Origin: a virus
Strand: one strand, 5' to 3'
DNA length: 32,134 nucleotides
IMG/VR virus record: IMGVR_UViG_3300043429_001387
Coordinates: 1 to 32,134 of that record
Below the pieces are notes generated by a model that worked only from the letters and a program-made list of their open reading frames with translations, searched no databases and was not told the DNA's origin. Positions 73-10,712 of the stretch are shown piece by piece (positions within the stretch are counted from its first letter, which is position 1; every line of letters begins with the position of its first letter). The position numbers and the translations under genes were made by a program.

Positions 73-103
73 AGCCCCGCCATTTCTGGCGGGGCTTTTG
101 TTT
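73..103 (+). terminator. Rho-independent terminator (rightward)
   Basis: A perfect 9-bp stem, AGCCCCGCC/GGCGGGGCT, has a 6-nt loop (ATTTCT) and is followed on the + strand by TTTTGTTT. This is a textbook intrinsic terminator for rightward transcription. It sits just past the stop of the leftward giant gene, which lacks a T-tract on its own side. No rightward gene precedes it in the window. It would serve the rightward repressor gene that ends at the last base if the molecule is circular. Confidence 0.85.
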
Positions 104-3100
104 CACCTCCTCCTCATCAAATCCTTCACCCCCAGCGGCTCGTCGCCCATTCTCCCCGCTTCCATCAGGTTGTGGACGATGGTGGTGAGCTGATCCATAG
201 GCAGGCGGAAGACGTAGCCGATCATGTCGACGGAGTCGAGCCAGGCTTCGGGGTTACCCCAGTCGTCTTCGTCGTCGAAGGCGTGGTGGCCGACGGCGGT
301 GATGGCGCCGATGGCCTGGGAGGCGGGCGTCATCTGGCCTGTGCCTTTGCCGGCGATGGTGGGGATGATGTCGCGGACGAAGGGAAGGACGCCGGCGAGG
401 TAGAGCAGGTTGTTCTTGGCCAGCCATTCGAGCCAGGATTCGTCGTCCTCGGGGAGTTTGCCGCGGATGGCGGCGAGGAGCACGCCAGGGAGCAGCGACA
501 AGAGGAAGTAGCGCATCATCAGGTTGGGGATCATGCGCATGGCGGTGGCGCGGTCTTCCTGCCAGGCGGTGCGGAAGGCGCGGCTATGGGCCCAGAGGCG
601 GTTGAAGACGGCGTTCATGGGGGTGTAGAACATGGTGAAGAGCTTCTGCAGCTCGCTGCCGCGCTGCCAGCCGGCGATGTCTTTGGTGCCGCCTGCGCCT
701 TGCGATAAGCGCACGGCGCGGTCGGCGAGGGCGATGGCTTCGTCTTCTTGCGTCGGGTGCTGCTGCAGGTGGTCGAGATAGGCGCCCCACCAGGTCGGGG
801 TGGTGACGGCGCGGTCCATCTCGTTGATCATCCAGAATGACCACTGGCGGAACTTGTCGACCTTGCTGAGATCGTTGCCGAGGGTCTTGATGCTGTCGGC
901 GAGGTCGCGGTCGAGGCTGTTGTGGCGGTGGCGCATTTCGCCGGATTTGGCGAGCATGGCGGCGCGGGCGGACTCGAAGCCCTCCGGGGTGTTGAAGCTG
1001 GCGGCGATGCCCTTGGCAATGGCGGCGGGGCCGATGATCTCGATGGCGTTGCCGTAGCCGAGGGTCTGGACGATGGCGGTGGAGAAGCGGAAGCCCAGGC
1101 CCATGTAGGTGACGCCGGAGCGGACATGGCGGAGGACGGCGTTGGCTTTCTGCTGGCCTTTGTCGATCTCGCTGCCCTTGGCAATGGCCTCGATGGCGGG
1201 CTGCAGCTGCATGTAGGCGCCGCGGCCGACACGCTTCTCGATGGCGCTGCGGACTTCGGCGTGTTGCAGGGTGCGCATCACCTGGGCGATGGCTTCGCGG
1301 TGGCTGAGGTCGTGGGCGACGTTGGTGATGTGGCGACGCAGGGCGCCGAGCTCAAGCAGGATGGGGTAGGCGGCTTTGGTCCGGGCCTTGGTAAAGGACT
1401 GGTTGGTCTCGGCTCTCAGGCTGCCGCCTTGGAACATGCGGAGCGCGGCCATCTCGTCGAAGTTGGAGATGCGGCCGGACTTGTCGGCGTTGGGATCGTA
1501 GATGACGGGGAAGTAGCCGCCCTCGAGCTCGACCTCGACGGGGGCACCGCTGCGGTCGGTGAGATGCAGGCGGAGTCTCTGGGGCTTGACCTTGCCGATG
1601 CCGTGGCCGGTGGTGCGGAGCTGCAGCTCGTTGACCTTCGGCCACCATTTGCCGATGTCGTCCCAGATCTGCTGCGCCAGGCGGGCGTCTTCGGGGCTGA
1701 GGTGGCTGATGATGGCTTCGAGCTGGGCGCCGCTCCAGTTGTAGCCAATGGTGAGCTTTTCGGCGTTGCCACGGTTGCCGAGGTTGAGGAGGACCATGAG
1801 GATCTCGGAGCGCTTGAACTGGCGCCCGACTTCCGGGACGGTGATGATGTCATCCATGCTGGCCCGCTGCTCTTTGGGCATGGCGTCGATGGCCTTGAGA
1901 AGTTCCTTGTTGGCTTCGAGGATGAGATCGTTCTCGGTGTGCTGGGCCTGGTCGATGGGTTTCCAGAGCTGCTTGGTGGCTTGGCCGATGCGTTGGGCGA
2001 GGCCGCTGTTGTCGAGGACGGCGATGATCTGTTCGTAGCGGAGGAAGGCGGCGGCGAAGCCTTGGACATTGCTCCAAGCTTGGGTGTCGGTGACTTTTGC
2101 GTCGCTGCGGAGGAAATCGCCGAGGCTGCGGGGGTTCTGCTGGATGAGGCCGGAGGGAGGCGCGGCTTGGGCGCCGCCGATGTCTTCGACGAGGAGCTTG
2201 ATGCGGGCGGCTTCGGCCTTCTTGGCAGCTTCGGAATCGGCCAGCGCCTTGCGGGTGCCGGTGATCTTCAGGGCTTCGATGGTGGCGGCGTACTCGTCGA
2301 GCTCGACCAAGGACATGGCCAGGTGGTTGTTGATGCCGGTGTCGGCATCGGCAAAGGCATCGAGGACGGCGTCGGGGATTGGGGTGATCCAAGCGCCGTT
2401 CTCGGCTTTCTTCTCGCGCAGGAGGAAGGCGATGAGCTCGGGCCGCTGGTTGTCCGGGTTCTGGTAGATGTGGATGGCGCGGCGGATCTCCTCGATCATG
2501 GCCTTGTACTCGGCGTGGACCTCCTTGCCGACGGGATCGAGCAGGCGCTCGTAGATGCCGTTGCGTTCATCGCGAGCTTTCTCGGCTTCGCGGGCGAGCA
2601 TGTACTGCATGAGCTGGCGCTCTTTGGCCGCGGCGGCTTTGGCTCGGTTGTCATCGATACTGAGGATGGTGCCGGCGGCTTCGACGGTGCGGCGCAGGCT
2701 GCCGGACGCCATGCCGGAACCGGCTTCGGCGGCTTGCTTGGTGCCGACTTCGGTGAGGAGTCGGGCGGCAGTGGCGGCTTCGCGTTCGGCGGCGCGGGCG
2801 TAGATGGCGGGGGCGAGGATCTTCTTGGCCGGGCTGCTGAGCATGAGCTGGCGGGCGGCGGCGCGGGCGCGCTCGATGTGTTGCCATGGCTTGCCTTTGC
2901 CAGAGAGGATGACGAGCTCACGGGCGATGACGGCGGCACCGGCTTCGCCGATCTTGCCCTTGCGGAGGGCTTGGTTGACGGCGCGGGCACCTTCGGAACG
3001 GGCGATCTCCATCGGGTCGTCTTCACCTCGGAGACGGGCGTCGACTCCGGCGCGGATCTGCTCCTCGAGCGGGGCGAAGCCCGCCAGGTCTTGGATCAGG

Positions 3101-6100
3101 TCGCCGGCGTCGGCGTAGCCGTGTGCCTGGGCGAAGTCGTCGGCGAAGAGCTCGCCGTCGACGCTGTGCAGGGGTGGAACGAAGCGGGGGAGCTTCTTGA
3201 CTAGGGTTTCGCCGAAGCGGCGGATGAGGGCTTCGGTGTTCAGGCGTTGGTGTTGGGCACCTTTGCGGAGGGCTTCGATGGCCTGCCAGGCGGGCTTGGC
3301 CTTGATGGCGGCTTCGACCTCGGCTCGGATGGCTCGCACCTTGTCGGCGTGGGCGTTCATGGCGTCCATGACTGGGCGCCAGTAGACCTGGTCGATGGCT
3401 TTCACCGCTTCATCTTTTGCGGTGGCCGCAGCGGCGAGGTAGTCTTGCCAATCGGCTTCGTTGATGCCGAGCTTCTTGGCAAGCTCGGGGCTGAGCTGGC
3501 TTTTGAGCTGCTGGCTGAGGGTGGCGGCGACGGCTTCGTCGCTGGCGAGCATGCGATCGAAGAGGCTTTTGACTTCGGGGCTGGCGCGGTGGTTGAGGCC
3601 GGTGAGGGAGTGGTAGACGGCGAGGAGCCAGTCACGAAACTGGGCGAAGAGGGGGCGGAGCTCGGGGCTTGGGGCTTCGCCGCGCATGAGGTAGCCTTCG
3701 AAGCTACGGGCAAAGAGTTCGTGGCCGGGCTTGTCGATGATACCGTCGGCATTGCCGAACTGCTGCTCGATGAGAGCCCAGTCGGCGACGATGTCTGGCG
3801 ATGCGCCGTCGCGGTGGGCGAGGTCGCGCATGACTTCGAGGAAGAAGTGGCCGGATTCGTGCAGGAAAGAGCTGCGGTCGGCGGTCTTGAAGAGGGTGAT
3901 GAGGTTGGTGGCGGGGGTGAAGGAAGCGCGGGGCGGGGCGACTTGCTTACCTTCATGCGGCTTCAGCTGTTCGTCCGGAACATTCCAGTCGCGGTCGCGG
4001 TAGCTCTCGGTGCGATCCTGGTAGAGCTCGCCTTCCTCCGCTGCGCTGCGGGACGGCTCTAGTGAGGATTGGTGGTAGGTGCTGCCGCTTTCGGCGTCTC
4101 GATCCGGCGCAGAAGTTCGCGCATTTGATCCATTCGTTCTGCCAAGATCAGCCGGGCTTCGCTGAGGTCTCGCTGCCTTTCCTGTTCGGTCAAGACGGGC
4201 CAATAGTTCGCCAAGGAGTGAGTCCACTTGAGAATCAATCCCTGCGTCTCCTCGTTGAAGTAGTCGTCCAGCCGGGGTGCCAGTTCCTGTTGATACAGGC
4301 CCATCAGGCGTTGATACTCCGGATCCTCCAGCAGATTGAAGTCGGCTGCGGATGTTGATGATTTTTTCGATGAGGCTGGCATCTTCGTCGATCTCCTTGT
4401 GTTCATTGTATCCCTTAATCCGTTCTGTGCTTTGGCCGACATAACAGCCGACGCCACCGGATTTATCACATTTGGTGCAGTTCCAGGTGTTGTTGCGGCC
4501 ATTGCCCAGTTCCTTGACCCCGGCATCGATGGGGCAGAGGTATTTGCTGGCGCCGGGGATGGCGCGGATCGGCTTAACCTCGTCTTCATGCAGGATGCGG
4601 CTGCCCATTTTGACCGGCAGGATGACTTGCATCTGGCCGCGTTTGACCAGCTTGGCGATCTCTTCGAGCTGGCTGCGTTCGGTGTAGACATAGGCGACAG
4701 GCAGGTCGGGATTTTGCTCGGCAAGGGTGGCGTTGCTCTGGTCGATGCTGAGGAGGCGGACATGGAAGTCGCTGACCTGCCGCAGAAGCTCGGGGCGCTT
4801 GCTGAAGATGTGGGTGCGGACACCCTGTTTTTCGAGTTCAGCGATGAAGGGCAGCCACTCGGCCGAGATGTCGCCCTTGTCGAAGAGGCGCAGGGCTTTT
4901 TTCTCTAAGAATTCCCGAGTTCGTTTGTATTCGTCAGCGACGGCTTTGGCGGCGCGGGGGGGATCCATCTCGACGGCGAGGCTGACCAGCTCGCTCTTCA
5001 CCATCGAGGAGCTGAAGATGTAATTGCCCTTGGTGGCGTAGCAATATTGGGCGCAGTCGTCGCTGGGGCGGCAGTTGAGGAAGGTGCTGGAGACATTGTT
5101 GACCGGTTTGGCCGCTTCGGAGAGCAGGCCGTTATGAGTGGCGATCATAAACCAGAAATTTTCGAGTCCTCCTTCAAGGGCCTTGCGCATGCCTTTGACC
5201 TTACTGGAATCGAGCGCCGACTGGAAGTCCGGGGTCTTGCCTTCGAGGAGCAGGCGGGCGGCGGCGCGGGTGAAGACGCCCTCGATGGCCTGTTTGGCCC
5301 AGGGTGTGCCGGCGTGGTGTTTGAGCTGGCGCAGGACTTCGGCTTTGTCGTCGCGGCGGGCGAGCTCGCTTTCCCACGCGGTTTTCTCCTCCGGGGTGAA
5401 GTTGGCGGGTGTGCGCTGGCCGATGCGTTTTTCGGGGGCGTCTTCGCCGATGGCGGATTGGTTGTATTCCGATTGGTTTTCGACCCAGTCCCACTGGCCT
5501 TTGCTGCTGTTGCCTTCACGCATCGAGACGGGGGCGCTGCCGGGGTGGTCGCGGGTGATGGCGTCGAGCATTTCGATGCCCATCTGGCGACCGAAGGCGC
5601 TGAGGTTCCTGAAGGCTTTGAGCTCGGCTTTGCCGCTGCCGTCGTAGGCCATGAAGCGGGCGGGGGAGCCGCGGTGCAAGCCAGTGAGCAGGGTCTTGAG
5701 GCGCTCGGTGCCGCGCAAGTGGGTGGCACTGGCAATGTCGTAGGGGAAGATGCCGACGAGGCGGTTGCGGGTGTTGACGAGGAGCAGGGCGGATTCGTCT
5801 TCGCGGTTTTCGGCTTTCATCATGCGGATGATTTGGTCGGGGCTGGTCATCATCATGCCTTGGCCGGTCTGCTTGACGAAGCTGCGTTTGACATGAGGGA
5901 CAAGATGCTTGCCAAGGGCCGGAGTCGCGGTGCCGCTGGTGAAGTCGGGAGCCGTCCAGCGGATTCCGCTGCCGTTGTTGGCGACGGCGATCAAGCCGTG
6001 ATAGCGAATGTGCGTGTCGCGCAAAATATCGTCCAGGGCCTCGGAGGTCTTGAGGTCCTGCGGGCTGAGTGAGGAGTCGCCGCCGGGGTGATTGTGGCTG

Positions 6101-8670
6101 AGCCAGAGATGGGCCGCCTTGGGGTAGGCGGCGAGCCATGTGACGATTTCGCGGGGGTGCAGGCTGCTGCGGTCGAGGGTGCCACGGGTGACGCTGTGGA
6201 CGGCGAGGATCTTGCCCTTCTTGTCGGTGGCGACGGCGAGGACGTTCTCTTGCGGATCGGCGGCGATGGCGGCGGTGGCGCGGGCAAGATCGGCGTGAGT
6301 GAGCAGCTCTTTCAAACCGGCATCCCAAGTGCCGATCTTCGACATCCCGACTTCATCGTAGAAGACCGGTTGAGGCTCTCCCGGGAGACTGAGCGTCAGT
6401 TGCTCGGGCTGTGGACTTCCCAGTTCTGACCCGGCGGCGGGGTGATCCCCATGTAGGGGGCTGGGCGCGTCACTAGCAGCCACGGATTCTCCCTCTCGAA
6501 CTTCTCCCATTCCAGAAGATTGCGACGATTCTGCTGCGCGGGCGTAAGCAAGCGCGGCGGCGGTGGCATTCTGAGTTTGCGAAGGGGCTGCATCGGGTGT
6601 CTCCGGGCTTACGATATCACGCGATTCGGCGGCAGTTCCGGCAGTTTTCAGATTCCAGCCGTATGACTTGAAGAGCTCATGAGGGTCTTGGCCGGAACGG
6701 CGGCCTTGGGTGGCGAAGAAGTTGCCGTAGAGGTAGCCCCAGAGCATGGCTTGCTCGTCGTCGACGCCTTGGGCGGTGGCGATGGCCTGGACTTCCTCGC
6801 GCACCTTCTGGGCGGATTCGCTGAGGGAACCGGCGTTATTCTCGGCGTCCTGGGCGGCTTTGAGGATGGCGGGCATGTTGGTCTTGAGCTCGGCTTCGCG
6901 CTGCTGCGCTTGCTCAAGGCTGAAGCCGCTCTGGTCGAGGTGGGCGCCGGGGAGAAGCTCATCGCTTTTGCCGAGGGGGGCGATGTGGGCGATGTAGTCG
7001 GCAAGGGACATGGTGACGGCGGCGCGGCTGGCGATCTGGTCGGCGAGGTCGGGGAAGCGCTGCTGCAGGCTGTCTTTGACGCTTTGGCGCTCGACGGCGA
7101 TGACTTTTGCGAGGGACGCAGAGTCGAGGGTGATTTCGGTGATCGGGCTGTCCTTGGCGATGTCTTTGGCGAGGGTCTCGAAGGCGGTCTTGTCGCCGAG
7201 CTTCGCCAGGTCGGAAGCTTTGACTTGCTGGTGGATGCTTTGCAGGGTGGCGGCTCCGGCGTGGGCGGCGTCGATCTTCGCCTGGTCGGTGATGGCGCTT
7301 TGCAGCTCGGCAGTGCTGTTGGCGTCTTTCTGGCCGTGGTAGCTGCGGGCACCGGAGAAGAGGGCGGGGAGCAGACCGAGCCAGAGTCCGGCGGTGGCAC
7401 CGCCTTTGCCCGCGTCGAAGATCTCGTCGAGCCACTGGGCGCCGCTGTGAGCGGTGGGGGAGAAGGCGAGTTCTCCGGCTTGTTGGGCCATCTCTTCGCT
7501 ACCCTCGACAATGGTCTGGCCGGTGACGGCGGCGAGGCTGCCAAGTGCGGCGACCGCAAGGGGCGATTTGATGCCGAGGCGCTGGATCAGGCGTTGGCCT
7601 GCGCCGCCCGCAAAATGGAGGGCGCTGTGCAGGGGGAGGACTTCGAGCGCGCCTTTGAGGTGACCTGAGATATTGGCACTGCGCCCGAGCTCGGCGATTT
7701 CGGTTTCGTTGGGGGCGCGTCCGTGGGCAGCGGTGAACTCCTGGATGTAGCGATCCATGCTCATGCCGGTTTCGAGTTGTTCCGAGCCGTGGATGGTGGC
7801 GAGGGTGCCGCCGATCTTGGCGGAACGGGCGCGGCTGAAGTAGTTGGCGACGCGGGCGAGGTTGATGACGGCGCTGCGCTCTAGGCCACTGAGGGCGCCG
7901 ACGGCGGTGCCGCCACCGGGCTCGATTGCGGTGCCCGCAAGAGCTCCGGCGAGGGTGCCCTCTACCGTGGTGCCGATGACCGAACCCATGAAGGGGAGCA
8001 TTTCGCCCATGGTGGTGGCGCTGTAGGCGAGGAAGCTGCCGTCGCTGGAATCGCCGTGATTGGCGAGTTTTTCCGAGAGCTCACGCATGCGGATGCGCTG
8101 GTCGGCATCGAGGTATTTGCCGTCGGCCTGTTTGTTCCTGAGTTCGGCAAGCTCGTTGCTGAGCATGCCGCGCTGCCAAGCGAAGCTGAATCGCTTGAGG
8201 TTGGCCTTGACGCCGGAGAAGTTCTTGAGGTCGCCTTCAGTGAGCAGGTAGCTGAGCTCGGGATGGGCCTTGATGTGCTGGATCAGGTCGGCATGGGCGG
8301 TGGACTGGTAGGCTCGTTCCATCGAGTTGATCTGCTTCTGGCGGACAATGTCATCGGCGGCAGGCTCCAGGACCTGGAAGCTTTCGCCGAGGTCTTTGGT
8401 GGCACCGTAGACGGCGGCGTTGGGTTCGCGACGGGCGCGATTCAAGGCGCCGACGGCGGCCATGGCGAGGCGCTCCTTGGCGTCTTCGAGGGCGGCGCTG
8501 TGCTCGCCGTCGAAGTCCGGCGCGAGGGGTTTATTCCACTCGGGATGACGGGCGAGGAAAGCGGCTTTGTCTTCCTTGGCGCGGTGGGCGTCGGCTTCGG
8601 CCTGCTGCTCGGGGGTGAGGTGGATGCGCAGGGGTGGGACAGAAGGTTCGTTGGGTGTTTCAAGGTTCAT
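103..8670 (-). CDS. Giant gp16-like internal virion/polyvalent protein (RadC, GP88 and metallopeptidase segments)
   Basis: A 2855-aa protein at the end of the leftward virion operon, after a gp15-like gene. By position, size and Gly/Ala-rich hydrophobic stretches (about residues 215-265, 345-440 and near the C-terminus) it is probably the DNA-ejection protein. Visible segments in order: an N-terminal helical region; a RadC-like JAMM segment with HNHPGG at residues 859-864 followed by SPQD; a GP88-like segment with Cys1200, 1206, 1210, 1379, 1398, 1401 and 1409 and an FDKGD motif; a zinc-peptidase motif HESGH at 1604-1608; long charged coiled coils; and a C-terminal LPD-like segment with two hydrophobic helices. 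Polyvalent proteins are known to be injected with phage DNA; enzymatic roles here are inferred. The ATG at 8670 overlaps the upstream stop as ATGA and is preferred over TTG at 8685. Two linkers contain nested ORFs. Confidence 0.85.
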   Translation of the reverse strand: MNLETPNEPSVPPLRIHLTPEQQAEADAHRAKEDKAAFLARHPEWNKPLAPDFDGEHSAALEDAKERLAMAAVGALNRARREPNAAVYGATKDLGESFQVLEPAADDIVRQKQINSMERAYQSTAHADLIQHIKAHPELSYLLTEGDLKNFSGVKANLKRFSFAWQRGMLSNELAELRNKQADGKYLDADQRIRMRELSEKLANHGDSSDGSFLAYSATTMGEMLPFMGSVIGTTVEGTLAGALAGTAIEPGGGTAVGALSGLERSAVINLARVANYFSRARSAKIGGTLATIHGSEQLETGMSMDRYIQEFTAAHGRAPNETEIAELGRSANISGHLKGALEVLPLHSALHFAGGAGQRLIQRLGIKSPLAVAALGSLAAVTGQTIVEGSEEMAQQAGELAFSPTAHSGAQWLDEIFDAGKGGATAGLWLGLLPALFSGARSYHGQKDANSTAELQSAITDQAKIDAAHAGAATLQSIHQQVKASDLAKLGDKTAFETLAKDIAKDSPITEITLDSASLAKVIAVERQSVKDSLQQRFPDLADQIASRAAVTMSLADYIAHIAPLGKSDELLPGAHLDQSGFSLEQAQQREAELKTNMPAILKAAQDAENNAGSLSESAQKVREEVQAIATAQGVDDEQAMLWGYLYGNFFATQGRRSGQDPHELFKSYGWNLKTAGTAAESRDIVSPETPDAAPSQTQNATAAALAYARAAESSQSSGMGEVREGESVAASDAPSPLHGDHPAAGSELGSPQPEQLTLSLPGEPQPVFYDEVGMSKIGTWDAGLKELLTHADLARATAAIAADPQENVLAVATDKKGKILAVHSVTRGTLDRSSLHPREIVTWLAAYPKAAHLWLSHNHPGGDSSLSPQDLKTSEALDDILRDTHIRYHGLIAVANNGSGIRWTAPDFTSGTATPALGKHLVPHVKRSFVKQTGQGMMMTSPDQIIRMMKAENREDESALLLVNTRNRLVGIFPYDIASATHLRGTERLKTLLTGLHRGSPARFMAYDGSGKAELKAFRNLSAFGRQMGIEMLDAITRDHPGSAPVSMREGNSSKGQWDWVENQSEYNQSAIGEDAPEKRIGQRTPANFTPEEKTAWESELARRDDKAEVLRQLKHHAGTPWAKQAIEGVFTRAAARLLLEGKTPDFQSALDSSKVKGMRKALEGGLENFWFMIATHNGLLSEAAKPVNNVSSTFLNCRPSDDCAQYCYATKGNYIFSSSMVKSELVSLAVEMDPPRAAKAVADEYKRTREFLEKKALRLFDKGDISAEWLPFIAELEKQGVRTHIFSKRPELLRQVSDFHVRLLSIDQSNATLAEQNPDLPVAYVYTERSQLEEIAKLVKRGQMQVILPVKMGSRILHEDEVKPIRAIPGASKYLCPIDAGVKELGNGRNNTWNCTKCDKSGGVGCYVGQSTERIKGYNEHKEIDEDASLIEKIINIRSRLQSAGGSGVSTPDGPVSTGTGTPAGRLLQRGDAGIDSQVDSLLGELLARLDRTGKAARPQRSPADLGRTNGSNARTSAPDRDAESGSTYHQSSLEPSRSAAEEGELYQDRTESYRDRDWNVPDEQLKPHEGKQVAPPRASFTPATNLITLFKTADRSSFLHESGHFFLEVMRDLAHRDGASPDIVADWALIEQQFGNADGIIDKPGHELFARSFEGYLMRGEAPSPELRPLFAQFRDWLLAVYHSLTGLNHRASPEVKSLFDRMLASDEAVAATLSQQLKSQLSPELAKKLGINEADWQDYLAAAATAKDEAVKAIDQVYWRPVMDAMNAHADKVRAIRAEVEAAIKAKPAWQAIEALRKGAQHQRLNTEALIRRFGETLVKKLPRFVPPLHSVDGELFADDFAQAHGYADAGDLIQDLAGFAPLEEQIRAGVDARLRGEDDPMEIARSEGARAVNQALRKGKIGEAGAAVIARELVILSGKGKPWQHIERARAAARQLMLSSPAKKILAPAIYARAAEREAATAARLLTEVGTKQAAEAGSGMASGSLRRTVEAAGTILSIDDNRAKAAAAKERQLMQYMLAREAEKARDERNGIYERLLDPVGKEVHAEYKAMIEEIRRAIHIYQNPDNQRPELIAFLLREKKAENGAWITPIPDAVLDAFADADTGINNHLAMSLVELDEYAATIEALKITGTRKALADSEAAKKAEAARIKLLVEDIGGAQAAPPSGLIQQNPRSLGDFLRSDAKVTDTQAWSNVQGFAAAFLRYEQIIAVLDNSGLAQRIGQATKQLWKPIDQAQHTENDLILEANKELLKAIDAMPKEQRASMDDIITVPEVGRQFKRSEILMVLLNLGNRGNAEKLTIGYNWSGAQLEAIISHLSPEDARLAQQIWDDIGKWWPKVNELQLRTTGHGIGKVKPQRLRLHLTDRSGAPVEVELEGGYFPVIYDPNADKSGRISNFDEMAALRMFQGGSLRAETNQSFTKARTKAAYPILLELGALRRHITNVAHDLSHREAIAQVMRTLQHAEVRSAIEKRVGRGAYMQLQPAIEAIAKGSEIDKGQQKANAVLRHVRSGVTYMGLGFRFSTAIVQTLGYGNAIEIIGPAAIAKGIAASFNTPEGFESARAAMLAKSGEMRHRHNSLDRDLADSIKTLGNDLSKVDKFRQWSFWMINEMDRAVTTPTWWGAYLDHLQQHPTQEDEAIALADRAVRLSQGAGGTKDIAGWQRGSELQKLFTMFYTPMNAVFNRLWAHSRAFRTAWQEDRATAMRMIPNLMMRYFLLSLLPGVLLAAIRGKLPEDDESWLEWLAKNNLLYLAGVLPFVRDIIPTIAGKGTGQMTPASQAIGAITAVGHHAFDDEDDWGNPEAWLDSVDMIGYVFRLPMDQLTTIVHNLMEAGRMGDEPLGVKDLMRRR
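4059..4382 (-). CDS. Nested +1-frame ORF inside the giant gene, after the GP88 segment (107 aa)
   Basis: This ORF lies wholly inside the giant gene, in the +1 frame on the same strand. ATG 4382 is preceded by AAGGAG at 4393-4398 with a 10-nt spacer, and the ORF ends in TAG. From about residue 14 the protein looks like an ordinary helical domain (for example DPEYQRLMGLYQQEL and ANYWPVLTEQERQRDL). The long frame across the same bases is a Gly/Ser/Thr/Arg-rich linker. A hand count gives about two thirds of codons ending in G/C in the nested frame and about one third in the long frame, so the nested frame looks like the older coding frame. It could be an expressed overlapping gene, or the fossil of a separate gene absorbed by fusion. 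No family was recognised. Confidence 0.55.
   Translation of the reverse strand: MPASSKKSSTSAADFNLLEDPEYQRLMGLYQQELAPRLDDYFNEETQGLILKWTHSLANYWPVLTEQERQRDLSEARLILAERMDQMRELLRRIETPKAAAPTTNPH
6396..6593 (-). CDS. Nested +1-frame ORF inside the giant gene, before the RadC segment (65 aa)
   Basis: A second same-strand +1-frame ORF inside the giant gene. ATG 6593 has GGAG seven bases upstream. The protein is Pro/Trp-rich and looks natural (LLEWEKFERENPWLLVTRP, then ITPPPGQNWEV). The long frame here is an Ala/Ser/Glu/Gly linker between the helical N-terminal part and the RadC-like domain. Codon endings favour the nested frame. As in the other nested ORF, the ATG overlaps a GAT codon of the long frame (G|ATG). 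No family was recognised. It may be translated, or it may be a relic of a formerly separate gene. Confidence 0.45.
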   Translation of the reverse strand: MQPLRKLRMPPPPRLLTPAQQNRRNLLEWEKFERENPWLLVTRPAPYMGITPPPGQNWEVHSPSN

Positions 8671-10712
8671 TTGATGTGGATCCAATCGCGCATGTTCGGG
8701 TTATCGGCAATGATCAGGGGCTCGCCTTGCGGCTGGGGCGCTGGCAGTTCTTCGGCTTGCGTCCGTTTGTCGATGATGTAGGGGCCGGAGGACTTCTGGC
8801 CGGCGGCGGGGTCGGGCATGGCGGGGCTGTAGAACTTGCCGCGCTTGAGGGCCTCTCTGGATTTTTCGAGCTCTCGTTTGTTGTGCTCGGCGGCGGCGGC
8901 TTCTTTGGCTTTGCGAAGCTCCCTCTCCAGGGCGAGCTCGATGTCGGTCTGCTGCTCGATGCTGCGGCCAAAAACCATCCGCTCGATCTGGCCGAGGATG
9001 TGGCCGCCGCTGGCATCTTGCATCTGCTGGAACTGGATGGGGTCGAGGCCGAGCTTGTTCTGCAGCTCGATGTCGTCTTTGGCGATGTGGGTGGAGGCTT
9101 GCTGGCGCTGGGTTTCCGACAGCTTCCAGGCAGGGACTGAGCTGCCGTCGGCAAGCGGCACAGGTTGGAGCAGGCCTTGGCGGAGGATGATCTTCTCGGC
9201 TTCGCTCAAGGGGCGTCCGGGGCGGGATTCGTTGATCTTCTCGATGCGGGAGCGCCAGACTTCGCGGAGCTTGATCTGGTCTCTGAGTTTATTCAGGTCC
9301 GGCGCCTGGGTCCGCTTGTCTTTGATCTGGGCGTCGTTGAGTCCGGCGAGATCGATGAGGTTTGCTTCGTGCTCTTTGTCGGAAGCTTTGCTGTGCTTGT
9401 CCTGCTCTTCTTCCCGCTTCTTTTTAGCGGCTTCGACCTTAGAGTTGCGCTCGGCGAACTTCTGCCGTCCGGCTTTGTCGAGATCGAGGTAGAGCTCGCG
9501 AGCGATCTCGGCGGGCATCTTTTCGAACTCGTCATCCGGCAGGGCGGTCATCTTCGCTTCAGCGCCGAGGGCTTTGGCCTCGTCGGCCTTGAGCTTGTCC
9601 TTCATGGCGATTTCTTTTTGATCAAGATCGAGCTTCTCGCGATCTGCGGCCGACATGAGTGCTTGGATTTCGGGATCGACCTCTTTTCCGGTGAGCTTCT
9701 GGGTGATGGCGGCATCTTTGGCGGCCTTCTCTTTTCTGGACCGGATTTCGGCTTCGACGCCCCAGTCTGCCAGGAGTTTGTTTTCGGCTTTGCGGGCGAG
9801 GTTGGCGTCTGGGATCTTGCGGAGTTCCTTCACTGCTTTGTCGACATCATCGGCATTTCCGAGGTCGCGGTCTTTCATGACGCGGTCCACTTCATCGCGC
9901 ACCTTGTTGTCGTCGTTTTTGACGCGCTCCGAGTACATACGCATATCCAGGTGCTTCTGGACGGCGGCGATGTCCTCGCCATCGAGCATTTTGCCGTAGC
10001 GCTTTTGGGCTGCCTGGGCGGCTTCGGCATCGGGGGCGGACAGGATGCGCTCGCGGGCGAAAGTGCTGCCGAGCTTTTTCTGCGCGGCTTCGACTTCTTC
10101 CGGTGACTGGCCAGCGACGGCGGCACCGAGCATGCCCCGGGCGCGGATGAGGCGGCTTTCGGCCTCGCCATCGCTGAGGCGTTGGTCTTTGGCGGCGTTG
10201 ATGGCGGTGTCCAGCGTGGCGTTGGTCTGGCCCTGTTTGTAGCTGGCGATTTCGCGTTCGCGGTGGGCGATGAAGCCGTGGCGCTGCTGCTCCTCCTCGC
10301 GGCGCATCGAGCTGGCGAAGGCTTTGCGGGCTCGTTCCGAGGGCAGGTTTTTGGCGAGCTCGTCGCGGTTTTTGGCGTAGATCGCCATGCCATCCTGCTC
10401 GATGGTTTTGGCGTCCATGCCCTTGCGGGCGTAGAGGCCGGGGTTTTTATCGGTGCCATCGCCGAAGCGGGCGAGGTCCATGCGTCGGCTGAGCTCGGAT
10501 TGAGCTTCACCGACAGCGGCGGCGGCTTCTTCCTCCTGGTGCTGGTCGATGGCTTTGACGGCGACATTGGCGAGGTCGCTTGCGCCTCGCGTCATCTGGC
10601 CGATCTGCTCCTGCTTCATCTGCAGTGCTTCTTGGCCGTAGATGTTTTGAGCACGGGAGAGCGGCAGGGGGCTGAGCTCGGCTTGGGGATTGGGGGAGAC
10701 TTGGACGCGCAT
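8667..10712 (-). CDS. gp15-like internal virion protein, coiled-coil rich (681 aa)
   Basis: A long, charged, Ala/Glu/Lys-rich helical protein with no membrane segment, lying directly before the giant protein and after a gp14-like gene. This is the place and size of the T7 gp15 ejection-tube component. Most of residues 20-650 look coiled coil. ATG 10712 is chosen over the upstream ATG at 10769 because AAGGAA lies just before it and because the N-terminus (MRVQVSPNPQ) fits better. Its TGA overlaps the giant gene's ATG, so the two are probably translationally coupled. Assignment rests on context and composition rather than a diagnostic motif. Confidence 0.7.
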   Translation of the reverse strand: MRVQVSPNPQAELSPLPLSRAQNIYGQEALQMKQEQIGQMTRGASDLANVAVKAIDQHQEEEAAAAVGEAQSELSRRMDLARFGDGTDKNPGLYARKGMDAKTIEQDGMAIYAKNRDELAKNLPSERARKAFASSMRREEEQQRHGFIAHREREIASYKQGQTNATLDTAINAAKDQRLSDGEAESRLIRARGMLGAAVAGQSPEEVEAAQKKLGSTFARERILSAPDAEAAQAAQKRYGKMLDGEDIAAVQKHLDMRMYSERVKNDDNKVRDEVDRVMKDRDLGNADDVDKAVKELRKIPDANLARKAENKLLADWGVEAEIRSRKEKAAKDAAITQKLTGKEVDPEIQALMSAADREKLDLDQKEIAMKDKLKADEAKALGAEAKMTALPDDEFEKMPAEIARELYLDLDKAGRQKFAERNSKVEAAKKKREEEQDKHSKASDKEHEANLIDLAGLNDAQIKDKRTQAPDLNKLRDQIKLREVWRSRIEKINESRPGRPLSEAEKIILRQGLLQPVPLADGSSVPAWKLSETQRQQASTHIAKDDIELQNKLGLDPIQFQQMQDASGGHILGQIERMVFGRSIEQQTDIELALERELRKAKEAAAAEHNKRELEKSREALKRGKFYSPAMPDPAAGQKSSGPYIIDKRTQAEELPAPQPQGEPLIIADNPNMRDWIHIK

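Follow-up and report, generated by a model that had tools for sequence, protein, structure and literature searches.

The window, by which we mean the whole stretch of DNA analysed (32,134 bases), contains genes for capsid, terminase, portal, tail and internal virion proteins and for an endolysin. It also carries a giant gene on the minus strand (103..8685), a single open frame specifying a multi-domain, polyvalent-type protein of 2860 aa. Several effector-type domains are present in this one polypeptide: a RadC-like JAB domain (5977..6273, minus strand; PF04002, above the Pfam cut-off), a GP88 domain (4366..5403, minus strand; PF17338, Pfam match at 4666..5085), which also exceeds its cut-off, and, 3' of the linker that follows GP88, a conserved segment with an HExxH motif (3286..4008, minus strand), a putative zincin recognized by this motif and by its homologues. 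The C-terminus of the giant protein is long and matches phrog_9880 and Bbp10-like phage proteins. With several such domains in one polypeptide, RadC among them, and late virion genes nearby in the window, the giant gene resembles the phage polyvalent proteins of Iyer et al. 2017 (PMC5512222) and is a member of that class. Going by its relatives and context, the giant protein is probably packaged in the virion and injected.

The GP88 domain of the window scores 24.6 bits against a Pfam gathering cut-off of 24.4, and its structure is confidently modelled as an alpha/beta fold (pLDDT 89). The motif CxxxxxCxxCYA is conserved in GP88. A Foldseek comparison of the model with phage proteins returned GP88 proteins and, weakly, Gp37/Gp68 and Radical_SAM phage models (E 0.03–0.04), and there was no match with E < 0.001 in PDB. 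No clear function for GP88 emerged when PDB was searched by fold and by sequence, and the possible membership of the radical-SAM group is a weak lead from the modelled fold only. The domain differs from the GP88/Gp37/Gp68 phage proteins in being fused into a giant protein and then followed by a nested gene.

This nested gene, in the +1 frame of the giant gene, has 107 codons and runs from ATG to TAG (4382..4059, minus strand); directly upstream of it lies GP88, and 10 nt 5' of its ATG is the Shine-Dalgarno (SD) sequence AAGGAG (4398..4393, minus strand). The ORF, its +1 frame, its ATG and the AAGGAG had been pointed out in the initial annotation, and are present as described there. The annotation also held the product to be helical, and AlphaFold2 likewise models it with three helices (mean pLDDT 74; about 80 in the core). 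The annotation's hand count of codons ending in G or C (about one third in the long frame, two thirds in the nested frame) was roughly right, third-position GC over the nested span being 41% in the giant frame and 65% in the nested frame. In the flanking DNA of the giant gene, the giant-frame value is 75–84%. The description of the linker as low complexity was accurate in part: the giant frame is rich in S, G, T and R, but it also includes a helix, DSLLGELL, found again in distant relatives. No consistent or significant family match to the nested protein was found in Pfam, PHROGs, PDB or viral fold libraries, and a search with the 107 aa sequence, suggested earlier as a check, gave no match among phages, Pfam, PHROGs, plasmids and IMG/VR peptide patterns. 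One relative was found in a genome collection.

That relative is a 5.1 kb contig (L073), the only close relative found, which shares 89% DNA identity with the window and has the same nesting. L073 is clearly from a phage, yet the MAG into which it was binned bears the title Lentisphaera araneosa, and the host assignment is doubtful. Inside the ORF, in what is the only pair available for a clean two-sequence test of the window itself, the substitutions at nested codon positions 1/2/3 number 20/21/39 (39/20/21 at giant positions 1/2/3), while the counts at giant positions are 28/18/78 in the GP88 part and 16/11/97 in the DNA after the linker. Both flanks of the ORF are back under giant-frame constraint. 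Over the ORF, 74 of 107 residues (69%) are identical in the nested frame and 62 of 107 (58%) in the giant frame, and overlap-aware dN/dS is 0.56 for the nested frame (bootstrap P≥1 0.035) and 1.48 for the giant frame. The comparison of constraint in the two frames, which had been put forward as a check, therefore favours the nested frame and not the long one, and no homologous giant gene among the close relatives keeps the linker while lacking the ORF, an arrangement named at the outset as speaking against the nested gene. Of two other pairs, L077/L078 gave a nested dN/dS of 0.41 (P≥1 0.016), and L074/L076 showed no excess of substitutions at nested third positions, with a nested dN/dS of 1.09.

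A search of IMG/VR that used only the GP88 domain as query yielded about 20 diverged giant genes, and in the great majority of them a +1 ORF with an ATG start follows GP88. Twenty-four sequences carry such an ORF, of 45–107 aa, which begins 45–171 nt past the GCxxG end of GP88 where this could be measured. One nested family is common to about 14 diverged lineages, and has a hydrophobic helix (WTHSW, WIYSYL, LFMKGN and the like) followed by xALTxxQ and a second helix. The profile of this family recovered L121, which was not in the training set, at 31 bits, and weakly recovered a GTG-started version in L116 (E 0.0096); it fails to recognize the nested ORFs of L081, L082, L083/L094, L111 and L119. 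GP88 occurs without a detectable nested ORF in L106, L110 and L114, L109 is truncated, and in L115 a stand-alone GP88 gene is followed by an apparently unrelated, separate gene. A scan with the HExxH segment gathered 70 giant genes regardless of GP88, and among these both GP88 and a nested homologue were found only in L034. The domain downstream of the nested ORF varies, being the HExxH segment in L076, RadC-like in L075 and ART-like in L074 (the latter two names come from reading of the sequences), and because these downstream domains differ, the nested ORF is seen to move with GP88. In L086–L088, at about 6990–7241, the giant frame is interrupted by a stop immediately past GP88, and it is the beginning of the following ORF that contains the nested one. 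Because related small genes occupy the same position after GP88 in many phages, the 107-codon ORF is, on sequence evidence, almost certainly a real and overlooked gene.

In the giant frame, the DNA of the nested ORF specifies a helix that recurs (DTLLGELL or DILLSEIRSGIDP; LDxLLSEIRxG), and it was therefore necessary to test whether the nested similarity is forced by the giant frame. In the shuffle test, the giant protein was kept fixed and synonymous codons were redrawn, the profile being built each time without the group of the sequence concerned. Real nested sequences scored 16–63 bits against these leave-group-out profiles (6.5–19.6 bits in the most distant group), and the synonymous shuffles had medians near zero and maxima of 6–27 bits; for the window ORF the values were 37.0 bits versus a shuffle maximum of 18.5. 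The p value was 0.001 in 16 of 17 sequences and 0.002 in the remaining one, with a Fisher combination of 2e-19 over ten groups that were defined by eye and whose lineage p values are not fully independent. The converse test detected extra constraint in the giant frame that is weaker but real (Fisher 5e-9). Since both frames are constrained, the giant one more weakly, the region is best described as dual coding, and by these measures both frames matter, the nested one more clearly.

A second nested gene occurs in the window. It is a +1 ORF of 65 aa in the linker before the RadC domain (6396..6593, minus strand), is conserved in L073 (567..761) far beyond what the giant frame demands, and scored 78.7 bits against a shuffle maximum of 22.5. 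Four further nested +1 families, in the giant genes of other phages, were positive in the shuffle test, with members in the linkers of L023 (9801-9992), L032 (892-1077), L035 (3616-3801), L044 (8193-8414), L045 (9807-9992), L050 (9182-9364), L062 (9138-9323) and L063 (4755-4934); a candidate family in L005/L055 failed it. Two of the four families include tandem nested ORFs, the stop of the first adjoining the ATG of the second. In the linkers of L032, L035, L062 and L063 the tandem ORFs share a frame and there is an SD inside the end of the first, an arrangement that amounts to a nested mini-operon. Matches to DUF7178 (PF23802) lie upstream of nested ORFs in L003, L005, L029 and L050, a placement that suggests other pairings of domain and partner. 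Together with the gene at 6396..6593, these families suggest a wider pattern. We would venture, at slightly less than even odds, that polyvalent genes are built as mosaics of cassettes, many of the accessory domains bringing their own +1 nested linker gene, which would specify a partner, an inhibitor or an immunity protein and would at times form part of a tandem mini-operon. If so, a second layer of genes would be hidden throughout an entire class of phage conflict proteins.

The reading we prefer, at a probability of about 0.7, is that a real nested gene lies in the +1 frame after GP88, that it gives a small three-helix protein by internal initiation, and that this protein is a dedicated partner of GP88. 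Ribosomes would initiate internally at the nested ATG on the giant mRNA, and the product made in the infected cell would be a small protein with the three helices predicted by a model of moderate confidence. The start codon and SD are conserved, the frame under constraint switches at about the ATG, and the protein is conserved beyond the demand of the other frame. One of the two explanations first offered for the ORF, that the phage expresses a second protein from inside the gene, thereby gains strong support from homologues, codon-position patterns, SD conservation and shuffles. Less surely, the nested protein may act on GP88 as, for example, an inhibitor, a cofactor or a folding/packaging helper, and it would do so while the giant protein is being made, before entry into the virion. 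We favour a partner of GP88 because the nested gene travels with this domain whatever domain comes next, and because of its strict placement and an IMG/VR scan with the family's own motif that recovered only GP88 giant genes. A tenable, if somewhat improbable, alternative is that the nested gene is real but independent of GP88, for example an anti-defence or host-takeover gene hitch-hiking in a tolerant linker. Small accessory genes may generally reside in linkers, since other linkers hold unrelated nested families after other domains, and there are the three GP88 genes without a nested gene to account for; however, within the data set the family is found only directly after GP88, and stays there when the downstream domain changes.

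The partner reading leaves aside the age of the two frames. The initial annotation considered the nested frame to look ancestral and, as its second explanation, proposed that an old gene was overprinted when domains fused. A separate gene beside the GP88 gene would then have been overrun by the fusion of the giant frame, a history that fits the window and L073, where constraint is seen in the nested frame but not in the giant one, as well as the split giant frame of L086–L088. Neither proposal could be established: across lineages the giant frame has a constraint of its own over this region, a similar giant-frame helix occurs in L114, where there is no nested ORF, and searches of phages, plasmids, IMG/VR and the GTDB species genomes (these last by one peptide-pattern scan) turned up no free-standing copy. 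A profile search of 199 genomes related to the assembly of L073 also gave no further copy. We regard overprinting of an older gene as rather unlikely.

It is very improbable that there is no second gene, with the +1 frame open through base composition and the conserved giant-frame helix LDxLLSEIRxG, and the likeness between nested ORFs incidental. The order of codons in GC-rich genes opens the +1 frame by itself, as 45 +1 ORFs are expected by codon permutation of the GC-rich giant genes and 59 are observed; the general count of +1 ORFs is for this reason a weak test, and was dropped in favour of tests in which the giant protein is fixed. For the window alone, openness of the ORF gave p=0.14 in the fixed-region test, and the helix itself, as noted, recurs in L114. 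Against this, the nested similarity was destroyed by synonymous shuffles in every lineage, which largely refutes an incidental likeness, and the changes between the window and L073 avoid nested positions 1 and 2 and not the giant ones. SD sequences precede 20 of the 24 nested ORFs, where 7.9 are expected (a 2.5-fold enrichment), and the codon-position pattern of GC switches to that of the nested frame both in the window (p=0.016) and across lineages (combined 8e-17). In the fixed-region test, the longest +1 ORF with ATG and SD gave a Fisher p of 2e-5, negatives included; this is the fair test of openness, since the probability of an open frame calculated on post hoc ORF ends overstates significance. 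The choice of ORF was post hoc in some of the tests, an effect reduced by the fixed-region and leave-group-out designs.

Least likely of all, and rejected here, is a programmed +1 frameshift after GP88, which would produce a truncated GP88 with an alternative tail and involve no internal initiation: in the window and L073 the +1 frame is indeed open for 174–205 codons upstream of the ATG, but both the start codon and the SD are conserved, substitutions in the GP88-coding part immediately upstream show the giant-frame bias (28/18/78), and 16 of 24 lineages have an in-frame stop no more than five codons upstream of the nested ATG, so that internal initiation is favoured over frameshifting.

These sequences point to an unannotated family of small proteins that keeps to one position within the giant conflict genes of many unrelated phages; gene callers forbidding full overlaps would miss it. 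If confirmed, it is a new protein family that suggests polyvalent domains come with partners, and the function of GP88 becomes testable through its partner. The nested genes would also supply naturally occurring examples of dual coding maintained over long times, under strong constraint in one frame and weak constraint in the other.

To our knowledge, most of the nested genes known in phages belong to lysis genes or to tiny genomes. Small phages such as phiX174 have tiny genomes pressed for space, and its genes B, K and E are overprinted, nested genes with their own starts in different frames, so that one stretch of DNA specifies two proteins. The nested gene after GP88 likewise shares its DNA with a second protein in another frame and has its own start, but the overlap is in a phage of tens of kilobases, and it is specifically in linkers that it recurs. 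The literature searched contained no account of nested genes in polyvalent proteins, and neither overlapping genes nor GP88 came up in a term search of Iyer et al. 2017 (PMC5512222). The closest parallel in layout is Rz/Rz1 of phage lambda, where Rz1 is embedded in the +1 frame of Rz and its product partners Rz (PMC6139136); in both cases, a small gene lies wholly inside a larger phage gene in the +1 frame. The partnership has been shown for Rz and Rz1, whereas for the nested protein and GP88 we infer it. The proteins and the stage also differ, and while the lambda pair occupies a short lysis gene, the nested gene described here sits in an interdomain linker of a virion-type giant gene, preceded by about 1400 giant-frame codons.
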